Shown: positions 4,732 through 57,977 of the stretch, one piece after another
Numbering within the stretch: position 1 is the first letter of the stretch
How the letters are laid out: the number at the start of each line of letters is the position of its first letter
Assembly (NCBI GenBank): GCA_016235865.1
Contig: JACRIK010000027.1
Coordinates: 90,213-154,212, forward strand
Source: Planctomycetota bacterium
GTDB taxonomy: Bacteria; Planctomycetota; MHYJ01; JACQXL01
Length of the DNA stretch: 64,000 nt
Reading direction: 5' to 3'
Notes under the pieces: generated by a model
The model's input: only the letters and a program-made list of their open reading frames with translations
The model's database searches: none
Told to the model about the DNA's origin: nothing
Made by a program: the position numbers and the translations under genes

Positions 4732-4951
4732 TATATGCTTATTGTTTTAGTAAGCTCACAAGAAACGGCGCCTGTTCGTATTTCGGATGCCGTTCGTTCG
4801 GTAATCAAATGCCATTCCTTTGCCCAAGAGATGCCATCCCTTATATGCTTATTGTCTTAGTAAGCTTACAAGAAACGGCGCCTGTTCGTATGGCGGATGC
4901 CGTTCGTTCGGTAATCAAATGCCATTCCTTTACCCAACAGATGCCGTGCCT
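4732..4951. repeat. Tandem duplication, two copies of 110 bp
   Basis: Copy 1 is 4732-4841 and copy 2 is 4842-4951, starting at TATATGCTTATTGT. By eye they differ at about 8 of 110 positions. The period is not a multiple of three, so no single reading frame survives across both copies, which argues against coding. Each copy contains GAAACGGCGCCTGTTCGTAT and GATGCCGTTCGTTCGG. Confidence 0.9.
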
Positions 4952-38749: not shown

Positions 38750-39057
38750 TTTTCGAATAGCTTGATGCCCCTTTTCGAATAGATTGATACCCCTTTTCGA
38801 ATGGACCGATACCCGTTTCCGAATAGCCCGATACCGGTTTTCGAATGGAGACGCTCTCCTTTTCGCGCAGGGATATCCCCGTTTTCGAATAGAGATACCA
38901 TCCTTTTCGCGTGGAGGTATACCCGTTTTCGAATGGAGATATCCTCCTTTTCGCGCAGGGGTATCCCCGTTTTCGAATGGCGATATCCTCCTTTTCGAAT
39001 GGCCATACCCCCCTTTTCGAATGGCTCTATCCCCGTTTCCGAATGGCGACATCCTTT
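38750..39057. repeat. Tandem array, 14 units of exactly 22 bp
   Basis: Units start at 38750 and then every 22 bases to 39036. The consensus is TTTTCGAATGGNGATATCCCCS. Positions 1-5 are nearly invariant (TTTTC, TTTCC in units 4 and 14). Positions 7-11 vary between AATGG, AATAG, GCAGG-like and GTGG-like. The centre GGNGATATCC is close to palindromic. There are no spacers, so this is not CRISPR. 22 is not divisible by three, so open frames through the array shift register each unit. Confidence 0.95.
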
Positions 39058-53612: not shown

Positions 53613-53717
53613 ATCATAACAGGCGCATCAGGGGTGTCCCTACGGGATTTTCGTTTATAGAATACCGTGAGGTGCTAGCAAAACCATTGACCTTTTGTGC
53701 AGACGGGCATATACCAC

Positions 53718-56700
53718 ATGATTGAGCATCTTGAGAGTCCCGGCGATAAATTAGTTGATTACGAGAACTGGAAAGCAATCATGCTCAACACATTAAAATA
53801 CCAGATTTATATCGTCTCTCCGGAATATGATTTCATCTGGGTCAATAAAGCATTTGAAGAGGAAATCGGTCTGTCTTTAAGCGAACTCAAAGGCAAGAAA
53901 TGCTATGAAGTCATCCATCGGGCCAACAAGCCGTCGGAAATTTGTTTGTTATATAATATGCTGAAAGATAATAAGTTCCGTTTGATGGAGACAGAGGTGG
54001 AATTGAACGGTAAGACGTCGCACATTTCAGCTACGCCGGTCCTGGATGGTAAGGGCAACCTGGAAAAGGTTATTCACATCCTTACGGATATAAGCGAGCA
54101 TAAGCGGGCTGAAGAATCGTTACTCTTGTCCCGGAATCAAATGGAGGCCGTGGCGAAGATCGGAATCACGGTTAACTCCACTCTGAATATCAGCGAGGTA
54201 TTGAACTACATCCTGACAGGTGCTCTTGAAGTTACGGGTGCATCGGTCGGCATGATATTCCTCAAGGATCAGGAGACGGGTTGCCTGAAATGGGGCGCTG
54301 CACATGGCTTGTCCGAGGCGTTTATTCAGTCCTATCGAGACCAGGTTATTAAACCCGGCGAGGGTTTAAGCGGCCGCATCGCCCAGACCGGTCAACCAAT
54401 TTATATCGCGGAAAACTCCTCGCTTGACCCGAGGATTGCCCGGTCTATAATCAAGACCGCAGGATTTAACAGCTTCATCGGCGTGCCGGTTTATGCCGAG
54501 GATAAAATCGTCGCCGTGATGAATGTCCTGACCAAACCGCCGGATGTTTTGGGGGAAGATAAAACCGCCCTGATTAAGGCCGTGGCCACGCAGGTGGGCT
54601 TCGCTATTCGCAATGCCCGGCTTTTCAATGAACGCCAAAAGGCCGAAGAGGCCCTCCAACGGAGTGAGCGTAACCTGGTCGAGGCGCAGCACATCGCGCA
54701 CATCGGAAGTTATGAATATGACGTGGTGAATAAACGGCTGTATTGGTCGGATGAGATTTTACACATCTTGGGTATTTCACGCCGGGATTTCAAGGGCAAT
54801 ATCGATGATTTCTTAAGCCGCAACCATCCAGACGATAACGAACTGGTTAAAAAAGCCGTCAAGGAAGCCATGGAACAGAGAAAGGCGGGAGATTTTATAC
54901 ATCGCGTCATAAGGGCTGATGGCGCTGTCCGGACGGTTCATGAACGTATCAGTCCATTTTTTGACGAAAAAGGACAGGTAATACGCTACATCGGTGCGGT
55001 CCATGATATTACTGAGCGCAAGCAGGCCGAAGAGGCCCTAAAGAAGAGCGAGGAAAAATTCAGGATGCTTGCCGAAAAAGCAATTGTGGGTATCTATATT
55101 ATCCAGGACATGAAGATGGTTTACATCAATCCCAGTTGCGTCAGGGCCCTTGGGTATGAATCCGGAGAAGCCGCCGATCGACTCGGCCTGCAAGACATAA
55201 TTCATCCTGATGATTTCCGGCTCGCAAGGCAACGGGTTCAGGAAAGATTGGAAGGCAAAGAGGGGAAAGCCAATGCGATCTACAGGGCAGTAAGAAAAGA
55301 CGGTTCGACTATTGATATCGAGGTTTACAGTATGCTTACGGAATATCAGGGCCGGCCGGCTGTGATGGGGACCGTGATGGACATTACCGAGCGCAAACGG
55401 GCCGAAGAGATGCTGAAGGAGAGTGAAAATCGTTTTAGGCAGATAGCCGAAAGCTCCGAAGAGTGGATTTGGGAGGTCGATAATAAAGGTTTATATACCT
55501 ATGCCAGCCCGGTCGTAGAAAAAATTCTCGGCTATACGCCGGAGGAAATCGTCGGGAAAAAGCATTTTTACGACCTCTTTATCCCGGATATGCGGGAAAA
55601 ACTTAAGAAGGCCGCCTTTGAAGGCTTTGATAAAAAAATGCCTTTTAAAGAATTTGTCAACCCAAATGAGCATAAAGATGGGCGCATCATTATACTGGAA
55701 ACAAATGGAATGCCGATTTTAGATAGTATGGGGAACTTGTTGGGTTATCGCGGTGCAGACATTAATATCACCGAGCGCAGGAAGATGCAGGAGATGCTGG
55801 TGGAATCCGAGGAAAAGTATCGGACGATGGTAGAGAATTCCAATGACTTAATATGGGCGCTTGATGTTGAAGGGCGCCTGATTTTCGTTAATAAGCGGGC
55901 GCTGGAAATCGGCGGCTATCTGATGGCGGAACTGGATAAAAAGCATTTCAGCCTGGGGGTTCACCCTGATGATTTGGACAGAGTAAAAATGCACGTTGGC
56001 AGAACGCTTAAGGGAGAATCCCAGACCTACGAGGCGCGGGTCATCGACCGCCATGACCGGATATTGGTACTTCAAATTAATGCTGCGCCCCTGTACCGGA
56101 ATAAGCAGGTGATAGGGACGGTCAGTTTTGCGCGCGACATCACCGAAAGCAAGAAAGCCGAGGAGGCGCTGCGGGAGAGCGAGGAGAAGTTCAGGGGGCT
56201 GGCCGACCAGTCGCCCAACATGATTTTCATTAATAGTCGAGGGCGCGTTATTTATGTCAACAAAAAATGCGAGGAGATAATGGGCTATTCAAGAAAAGAG
56301 TTTTACTCCGAGAAATTCGATTTCATGGATATAATCGCGCCGGATTCAAGGAAGTTGATTAAAGATAATCTTAAGAAGCATTTAAAGGGCAAGGAGATAC
56401 CGCCCTATGAATATAAACTCCGGACCAAGGATGGAAAAGAAATAGTCGGCATACATACCACTAAGTTAATTGATATTAAAGGGGAAAGGGCTGTTTTGGG
56501 CATAATAACCGATATCACCGAGCAGGTCCAATCACGGGAGCAAATCCGGGCCCAGGCCGTGTCCCTGGAGCAGAAAAACGCCGCCTTAAAGGAACTTCTG
56601 GAGCAGATTACCAGGGAGAAAAAGGACATTACCGACAAGATGCATACCAACCTGGAAAAACTGGTCATACCCAAGATAAAGAGGATGAAAAGCAAATCCG

Positions 56701-56975
56701 AAGAAGGTCTCAAAGACCAACTCGGAATTATCGAAAGGCATATCAAGAATATCGCGTCCTCGTTCGGCAAAAAGATATCCTCCGGCCAGCGGGCCCTGTC
56801 AACCCGCGAAATAGAAATCTGCGACATGATACGGGACGGGCTCAAGAATAAGGCCATTGCCCGGGAACTGCGCCTCTCCTTGGAGACGGTCGAAACCATG
56901 CGCAAGAATATCCGGCGCAAGCTGAAAATCCAGAATAAAGAGGTAAACCTCAAAACCTACCTCCAGACCCTGTAA
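53718..56975 (+). CDS. PAS/GAF multisensor with LuxR-type DNA-binding domain
   Basis: About 1085 residues from ATG 53718. GTG seven codons earlier is an alternative, and neither has a strong ribosome site. Domains: PAS1 (about 10-125), GAF (150-300, AVATQVGFAIRNARLF), then five further PAS/PAC units, each closing with a D-ITE/DITERK-type motif (GTVMDITERKRAEE, GADINITERRKMQE, and so on). After a coiled coil comes a LuxR helix-turn-helix (TREIEICDMIRDGLKNKAIARELRLSLETVETM..NIRRKL). There is no histidine kinase or GGDEF domain, so it is a one-component sensor-regulator. The nearest downstream gene is an RsbW-like ATPase. Confidence 0.9.
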   Translation: MIEHLESPGDKLVDYENWKAIMLNTLKYQIYIVSPEYDFIWVNKAFEEEIGLSLSELKGKKCYEVIHRANKPSEICLLYNMLKDNKFRLMETEVELNGKTSHISATPVLDGKGNLEKVIHILTDISEHKRAEESLLLSRNQMEAVAKIGITVNSTLNISEVLNYILTGALEVTGASVGMIFLKDQETGCLKWGAAHGLSEAFIQSYRDQVIKPGEGLSGRIAQTGQPIYIAENSSLDPRIARSIIKTAGFNSFIGVPVYAEDKIVAVMNVLTKPPDVLGEDKTALIKAVATQVGFAIRNARLFNERQKAEEALQRSERNLVEAQHIAHIGSYEYDVVNKRLYWSDEILHILGISRRDFKGNIDDFLSRNHPDDNELVKKAVKEAMEQRKAGDFIHRVIRADGAVRTVHERISPFFDEKGQVIRYIGAVHDITERKQAEEALKKSEEKFRMLAEKAIVGIYIIQDMKMVYINPSCVRALGYESGEAADRLGLQDIIHPDDFRLARQRVQERLEGKEGKANAIYRAVRKDGSTIDIEVYSMLTEYQGRPAVMGTVMDITERKRAEEMLKESENRFRQIAESSEEWIWEVDNKGLYTYASPVVEKILGYTPEEIVGKKHFYDLFIPDMREKLKKAAFEGFDKKMPFKEFVNPNEHKDGRIIILETNGMPILDSMGNLLGYRGADINITERRKMQEMLVESEEKYRTMVENSNDLIWALDVEGRLIFVNKRALEIGGYLMAELDKKHFSLGVHPDDLDRVKMHVGRTLKGESQTYEARVIDRHDRILVLQINAAPLYRNKQVIGTVSFARDITESKKAEEALRESEEKFRGLADQSPNMIFINSRGRVIYVNKKCEEIMGYSRKEFYSEKFDFMDIIAPDSRKLIKDNLKKHLKGKEIPPYEYKLRTKDGKEIVGIHTTKLIDIKGERAVLGIITDITEQVQSREQIRAQAVSLEQKNAALKELLEQITREKKDITDKMHTNLEKLVIPKIKRMKSKSEEGLKDQLGIIERHIKNIASSFGKKISSGQRALSTREIEICDMIRDGLKNKAIARELRLSLETVETMRKNIRRKLKIQNKEVNLKTYLQTL

Positions 56976-57014
56976 CCGGATAATCAGCCTTTAACGCCCC
57001 CGGCCAGGCCAAAG

Positions 57015-57038
57015 TGGGTATGCTGCATACCCATTTCT
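57015..57038 (+). terminator. Inverted repeat after PAS/GAF gene
   Basis: TGGGTATGC-T-GCATACCCA followed by TTTCT, 40 bases past the stop. The near-zero loop makes it a modest terminator. Confidence 0.4.
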
Positions 57039-57055
57039 ACCCTAAATTTCCTACC

Positions 57056-57085
57056 TTGACGTTTCGCTGATATCAGCTATATTAT
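57056..57085 (+). promoter_or_regulatory. Sigma-70-like promoter before structured leader
   Basis: TTGACG (57056-57061) with TATATT (57078-57083, 16-base spacing) or TATTAT (57080-57085, 18-base spacing). The start would fall near 57090, just ahead of the paired G/C-rich segments. Confidence 0.5.
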
Positions 57086-57089
57086 AGGC

Positions 57090-57300
57090 AGACCAATGAT
57101 GAACTCCCTCAGACGGGTAAAACAAAAGGGGGAGAGAAGCTGGCTTCTCCAGAGTTTTCTACTTAAGTGTATGCATCAGCGAGGGGTCATGTCTATCTCC
57201 CCCTTTAAGATAAAATAGAAGAGGGGATGCGGCTCCTGGGGTTTGCTGCCAAGAGATATGCATCAGAGTGGGGCCAAATCTCCCCTTTTTCTGGTATCAG
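57090..57300 (+). promoter_or_regulatory. Tandem structured leader, two related domains
   Basis: Domain 1: AAAGGGGGAGA (57127-57137) can pair over 11 bp with TCTCCCCCTTT (57197-57207), enclosing a GAGAAGC/GCTTCTC hairpin. Domain 2: AGGGGA (57223) pairs with TCCCCTTTTT (57282). Both contain TATGCATCAG followed by a GGGG run and end in a C-run then T-run. Neither matches a riboswitch class known to me. The following gene is an RsbW-like ATPase. Confidence 0.5.
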
Positions 57301-57304
57301 GCCT

Positions 57305-57736
57305 ATGAACAGATTAGAGTTGAAATTCTCCACCTCGGCTGAGATGACCCGGGCCGTATTCCAGATGTTCAGCCGGATACTCAACTCGGTCGGGATGGAC
57401 GAGGAAACCCGGACCAGGTTTATGCTGGCGGTCGGCGAGGCCATAGACAATGCCGTGATTCACGGCAATAAATTCTCGGCCGATAAATTCATAGAAGTGG
57501 AGTGCTTCTGCAATTTAAATAAAATAACTTTTATGGTGGCGGACCAGGGCGACGGTTTTGATTATCGCAAGCATCTGGATACCCCGATTGCTGAATTCCA
57601 GGCGCCTAAACTTATAGAAAAGACAATGAAGTTCGGTTCTCCGGGCGGGCTGGGCCTGGCCCTGATCCGAAAGTGTGCTGATGAAGTTATCTTCACCCCT
57701 CCGGGCAATCGGGTGAGTTTTGTTAAATATATCTAA
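57305..57736 (+). CDS. RsbW-like anti-sigma serine kinase (HATPase)
   Basis: 143 residues from MNRLELKFSTSAEM. The open frame extends upstream to 57227, but that lies inside the second structured leader domain and lacks a ribosome site. Bergerat ATP-binding motifs are visible: LAVGEAIDNAVIHGNK (N box), VADQGDGFDYRK (G1), SPGGLGLALIRKCADE (G2). Family members phosphorylate anti-anti-sigma factors and bind sigma factors. No partner sigma or STAS gene is next door. Confidence 0.87.
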   Translation: MNRLELKFSTSAEMTRAVFQMFSRILNSVGMDEETRTRFMLAVGEAIDNAVIHGNKFSADKFIEVECFCNLNKITFMVADQGDGFDYRKHLDTPIAEFQAPKLIEKTMKFGSPGGLGLALIRKCADEVIFTPPGNRVSFVKYI

Positions 57737-57752
57737 GGATAGGAATGGCAAT

Positions 57753-57977
57753 ATGGCATATCTGACTGCAAGCCGGGAAGGCAAACGATTCCTGGGCAAT
57801 CGGGACAAAAAAGAGGTCCACGACCTGAAGTGTGAAGACGTAAGCCAAAACGGCTGCGGGGTTAACGAGTTCATCCGTTCCGACAATGCGGTCGGCTTTA
57901 TCGTCGATACTCTGGACCAGGCGCACCAGGAAAGATACACCGCCTGCCCTAAATGCATCGGTAAAACGGAGCAATAA
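57753..57977 (+). CDS. Small Cys-containing protein, unknown
   Basis: 74 residues from MAYLTASREGK, 16 bases after the ATPase stop. Four cysteines in CEDVSQNGC and CPKC suggest a metal site. FIVDTLDQAHQERYTACPKCIG resembles the short helix-CxxC endings of Ada-like metal-binding repair proteins, but that likeness is weak. AGGAATGG precedes the start. Confidence 0.6.
   Translation: MAYLTASREGKRFLGNRDKKEVHDLKCEDVSQNGCGVNEFIRSDNAVGFIVDTLDQAHQERYTACPKCIGKTEQ

Follow-up and report, generated by a model that had tools for sequence, protein, structure and literature searches.

We describe here a structured, non-coding 5' leader in front of a gene for an RsbW-like ATPase, in a 64,000-nucleotide stretch of a Planctomycetota genome (the whole of which we call the window). 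The leader holds two homologous domains, D1 and D2, the second of which has preserved the pairing of the first, and it follows a promoter-like site and precedes the gene. The explanation that we tentatively prefer is that an old tandem duplication gave rise to both hairpin domains and that their stems and core were kept thereafter. The leader is a well-defined orphan motif, probably a lineage-restricted one with a cis-regulatory role.

The leader and its surroundings

The features of the locus are as follows.

53697-56975, gene for a PAS/GAF/LuxR-type regulator (1092 aa), the upstream neighbour of the leader
57015-57033, no strand, perfect palindrome TGGGTATGCTGCATACCCA, upstream of the -35 box and beside the LuxR-type regulator gene
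57056-57085, plus strand, predicted sigma-70-like promoter (consensus match only, with two overlapping choices of -10 box)
57125-57206, plus strand, domain D1 (P1 57125-57135/57196-57206, P2 57142-57147/57183-57188)
57134-57149, plus strand, alternative hairpin GAGAAG-CTGG-CTTCTC in D1, from prefix folding, partly exclusive with P1 and P2
57153-57155/57161-57163, plus strand, predicted P3 of D1
57170-57179, plus strand, core of D1, TATGCATCAG
57219-57289, plus strand, domain D2 (P1 57219-57226/57282-57289, P2 57231-57236/57270-57275)
57240-57242/57248-57250, plus strand, predicted P3 of D2
57257-57266, plus strand, core of D2, with a U-run after the domain
57305-57736, plus strand, RsbW-like HATPase_c_2 gene (143 aa; E 6e-21, ORF scanned from 57227)

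The initial annotation, made from the letters of this DNA, had proposed a sigma-70-like promoter, two related domains of which the first is closed by an 11-bp stem, a core common to both, a C-run followed by T's at each domain end, and an RsbW-like ATPase downstream, and each of these was borne out. The start of the ATPase gene probably lies at the ATG at 57305, as judged from the N-terminal ends of its paralogues. The promoter can be written as TTGACG-16-TATATT (57056-57083) or TTGACG-18-TATTAT (57056-57085), with 10/12 consensus matches, and it is one of three promoter-like sites, of which one lies on the minus strand, in a 451-base stretch, against 0.5 +/- 0.7 in shuffles. D1 begins about 40 bases downstream of it, and the promoter and both domains lie in the intergenic space from the regulator gene to the RsbW-like gene. 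Beyond the latter, an ORF of 74 aa (57753-57977) has gene-like codon use (0.101 per codon) and matches no Pfam family.

Two homologous domains

D1 and D2 fold alike, a P1 of G-run and C-run and a P2 of GGCUYC and GGGGYC enclosing the core UAUGCAUCAG-N-G-N-GGGG, and they have GGCUYCU, GUUUKCURCY and UAUGCAUCAGNGNGGGGYCA in common. The closing stem has 11 bp in D1 (57125-57135 with 57196-57206) and 8-10 bp in D2; the domains end in CCCCCTTT and CCCCTTTTT, respectively, the U-run after D1 being of three only. Exact copies of the core TATGCATCAGNGNGGGG occur genome-wide at 57170 and 57257 only, with copies at two mismatches in four more places. The global alignment of D1 with D2 scores 19, against 3.9 +/- 1.9 and a maximum of 16 in 1000 shuffles, and the local alignment scores 25, against 8.6 +/- 1.6 and a maximum of 17, none of 5000 dinucleotide-preserving shuffled pairs being as good. 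When a covariance model is built on D1 only and run over the window, its best hit besides D1 itself is D2 (31.8 bits, E 2e-5); the third match, at 23.4 bits, is the reverse complement of D1, which is found because the closing stem is palindromic. That stem also folds on both strands, and a minus-strand reading was rejected, the minus fold being the weaker (z -1.55 and -0.60). On these comparisons, D1 and D2 are best read as homologues derived from an old tandem duplication.

The two domains differ in how well they fold. D1 has a folding z of -3.7 to -3.8 against shuffles, and the values for D2 (-0.6 to -1.1) and for the whole leader (-0.96) are such that the stability of D2 is by itself unremarkable. 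As MAFFT alignments of D1 and D2 misplaced the 5' arms, we used a covariance-fitted alignment (A7), which leans towards the fold; in it D2 retains each stem pair that has letters on both sides, and 31/31 countable pair cells are standard, as compared to 50-77% when partners are slid by 1-3 columns. Three P1 pairs of D1 that D2 does not have were left out of these counts. The alignment contains one two-sided, compensatory change in P1 and three one-sided changes, and RNAalifold adds the small P3, which carries a second two-sided change; this covariation rests on two sequences, D1 and D2. For the same reason, a two-row shuffle control for pairing was uninformative (250/500). When the five stem differences are placed at random, all 14 alignable pairs are retained with a probability of 0.002, 0.006 or 0.018, the value varying with the assumed share of transitions.

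An alternative, rather doubtful but the most serious of those considered, is that an intergenic hairpin without function underwent a local tandem duplication and now drifts, the common core being the part that has yet to diverge. The same window contains further tandem duplications, for example at 4732-4945 and 38750-39054, no relatives of the element were found, and D2 folds like its own shuffles. Against this, D1 and D2 differ less in the stems (5/28) than at unpaired positions (15/42), and pairing is intact at all five stem differences. In total, the tandem relations scoring at least 20 in the window form 12 clusters, D1/D2 included, so that tandem duplication as such is unremarkable. The duplication at 4732-4945 has a 110-base unit in 1.9 copies with 94% matches, and 38750-39054 is an array of tandem units (22/44 bases) built around TTTTCGAATGGA(G/C)ATAYCCC.

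The sequence upstream of the promoter could also enter the picture. The palindrome at 57015-57033 is a possible operator, or possibly a weak terminator for the upstream gene, and one could suppose that it acts together with the TATGCAT of D1 and D2 as DNA sites bound by a protein, be it the LuxR-type regulator encoded upstream or some other. TATGC/GCATA half-sites are present in all three, and the adjoining gene encodes a protein with a LuxR-type HTH. We consider this very unlikely: no other place in the genome matches the palindrome exactly, allowing 3 mismatches yields only a few places (12, as compared to 5 for the control), and the stems and the long shared stretch would be left unexplained.

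A repeat origin is harder still to credit. Palindromic repeats with a G-run (CCCCCTTANNAAAGGGGGATWAAGGGGG, in many cases enclosed by ACAACC...GGTTGT) are found at 22 places in the genome when up to 3 mismatches are allowed, one being at 23916-23943 of contig 19, and the reversed control gives none. A copy precedes the rsbW paralogue on contig 19, which would be in line with D1 and D2 being decayed copies. However, in a comparison with 23 rows of the repeat (one copy being counted twice), none of D1, D2 and the whole leader aligned better than its shuffles (45, 46 and 131 of 200 as good), and membership was rejected.

Coding potential

The leader does not resemble coding sequence. The per-codon coding score is -0.187 for a 40-codon ORF over D1, -0.247 for the D2 frame and -0.167 for the in-frame extension of rsbW; at 40 codons, genes have a mean of 0.257 (5% limit 0.036) and off-frame readings a mean of -0.317 (95% limit -0.091). 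A leader-peptide attenuator is disfavoured, coding character having been looked for in the leader ORF and not found. We nevertheless kept a translated leader as a rival, since the core ATGs open short ORFs in the same frame (MHQRGVMSISPFKIK and MHQSGAKSPLFLVSGL, each closed by a stop) and the second of these overlaps the rsbW start in an ATGA at 57305-57308. Here, the ATG in each core, or the one at 57096, would open a short ORF that controls rsbW by coupling. The ribosome-site match before the second core ATG (-5.9) is in keeping with this proposal, whereas the match before the first is weak (-2.4), the scores of all leader frames (-0.19 to -0.25 per codon) are non-coding ones, below the gene 5% limit, and the similarity of D1 and D2 continues upstream of the ATGs; we regard it as unlikely.

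Searches for relatives

No Rfam 15 family reaches its gathering cut-off over the leader, and a known RNA family was thus rejected: the window yields two tRNAs only, and the three matches in 56950-57400 (E 2-5.1) lie far below the cut-off. This agrees with the initial annotation, which had seen a tandem, structured leader with a core of no class known to it. The D1 model found the element in its own genome only among 59 relatives (1/59), and so did the D1+D2 model in a first draw from the phylum (1/392); a second draw gave 0/391, the two draws having many genomes in common. With laxer filters, the D1+D2 model matched 2/23 genomes of the class, namely its own and one other at chance level. The latter match (20.1 bits; E 0.58 for the genome concerned) falls in a 255-aa ORF and does not have the core. 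The genomes searched include three others of the same family and none of the same genus. As a two-sequence model reaches fairly close relatives only, these negative results limit the spread of the element and do not prove it unique.

The exact pattern TATGCATCAGNGNGGGGYC occurs in 6 stretches of GTDB contigs and in 8 of IMG/VR. At the eight viral loci the covariance model found only short G-run/C-run hairpins, the six GTDB loci gave no hit at E <= 10, and by eye the rest of the domain is present at 0/14. One stretch, unrelated to the leader, is near-identical in all eight viral contigs; it ends in TATGCATCAGAGGGGGGTCC and is followed by a CCCCCCTCT arm. The phage and plasmid collections gave no match to the element.

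We also looked in front of related genes. The same genome has two rsbW paralogues, whose proteins are 72% and 60% identical and whose upstream sequences are different; the element is absent upstream of both. When the 23 class genomes were searched at the protein level for rsbW relatives, 12 matches reached E <= 1e-20, spread over 8 genomes. At the 11 loci besides the window's own, with filters off, the best model score was 18.9 bits, for a short G/C-run hairpin close to the paralogue on contig 19.

The initial annotation had likened the layout to that of cooperative riboswitches. In a tandem riboswitch, both domains would bind the same small molecule, cooperatively or successively. The layout itself invites this idea, with its two similar domains, a shared core of unpaired type and an output-like stem before the gene. 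However, an aptamer conserved in several genomes was sought and the element was found at a single locus in one genome, Rfam gave no match, neither a metabolic gene nor a transport gene is linked to it, no hint of a ligand was seen, the U-run after D1 is short, and the window has other old tandem duplications. We judge a cooperative riboswitch unlikely because a second locus is lacking, and the riboswitch label is not yet justified as no relative was found elsewhere. Less likely again is a rare, lineage-restricted class of tandem aptamers with terminator-like stems and possible AUGCAU loop-loop pairing, through which a small molecule would control how much of an RsbW-type partner-switching kinase is present. 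The annotation had staked its reading on a second occurrence in some genome and on pairing support from homologues: outside the tandem pair, no second occurrence was found in the collections searched, and pairing support did appear in part, because D2, as a homologue of D1, keeps each alignable pair.

A possible mechanism

In favor of a cis-acting leader are the homology of the domains, the retention of pairs, the non-coding score, the promoter-like site and the prefix folding; against it are the lack of a homologue in the collections searched, the shuffle-like folding of D2 and of the whole leader, and the paralogues without the element. If the leader is regulatory, control of an RsbW-type signalling gene at the RNA level would follow, and a non-exhaustive survey of titles in the literature returned none describing such control. 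CsrA was set aside as a regulator, since csrA (PF02599) was not detected in this 96.2% complete genome, by a search that detects it in 3/14 control genomes.

The likeliest mechanism for the leader is a two-state switch, the steps of which we infer beyond its being structured, homologous, non-coding and in front of rsbW. The 5' G-run of each domain would first pair elsewhere during transcription and, once the C-run is made, would rearrange into P1 and P2. Folding of successive prefixes, which gives equilibrium folds and not kinetics, is consistent with this, as 5' pairings and the hairpin at 57134-57149 yield to P1+P2 when the C-run is present. The output stem would be the P1 of D2, which ends in CCCCUUUUU, with UUUUU after the stem, 15 bases before the rsbW start codon; it could end transcription early or mask the start region. 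The trigger would act in the interiors of the domains and might be a small molecule at the UAUGCAUCAG core, a protein, an RNA or translation. In the predicted ensemble, the two cores are unpaired only in part (0.54 and 0.40).

Known systems offer partial parallels. D1 and D2 are about four times as large as the hairpins of guanidine-II (mini-ykkC). The latter resemble the leader in being two similar hairpins (PMC9481103), and a loop-loop pairing of the two cores of the leader, which is conceivable, would add to the likeness; the leader differs in having no Rfam match. Tandem cooperative and pseudo-cooperative riboswitches, such as the glycine type, likewise place two homologous structured domains before a gene (PMC9481103). 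Unlike them, the leader is a single locus with no Rfam match, no pointer to a ligand and no clear single expression platform, and the gene behind it is one for an RsbW-type kinase. The HMP-PP (thiS motif) riboswitch, whose aptamer is embedded in a terminator, is similar in having a conserved loop within a stem that ends in a U-run, and mutually exclusive folds are possible in both; that class numbers hundreds of representatives and is linked to a metabolic gene (PMC6478431), as compared to a single locus here, whose domains are larger and whose core differs. Finally, the self-complementary AUGCAU in the D1 and D2 cores would allow a loop-loop contact of six pairs, at -6.7 kcal/mol as calculated for isolated strands.
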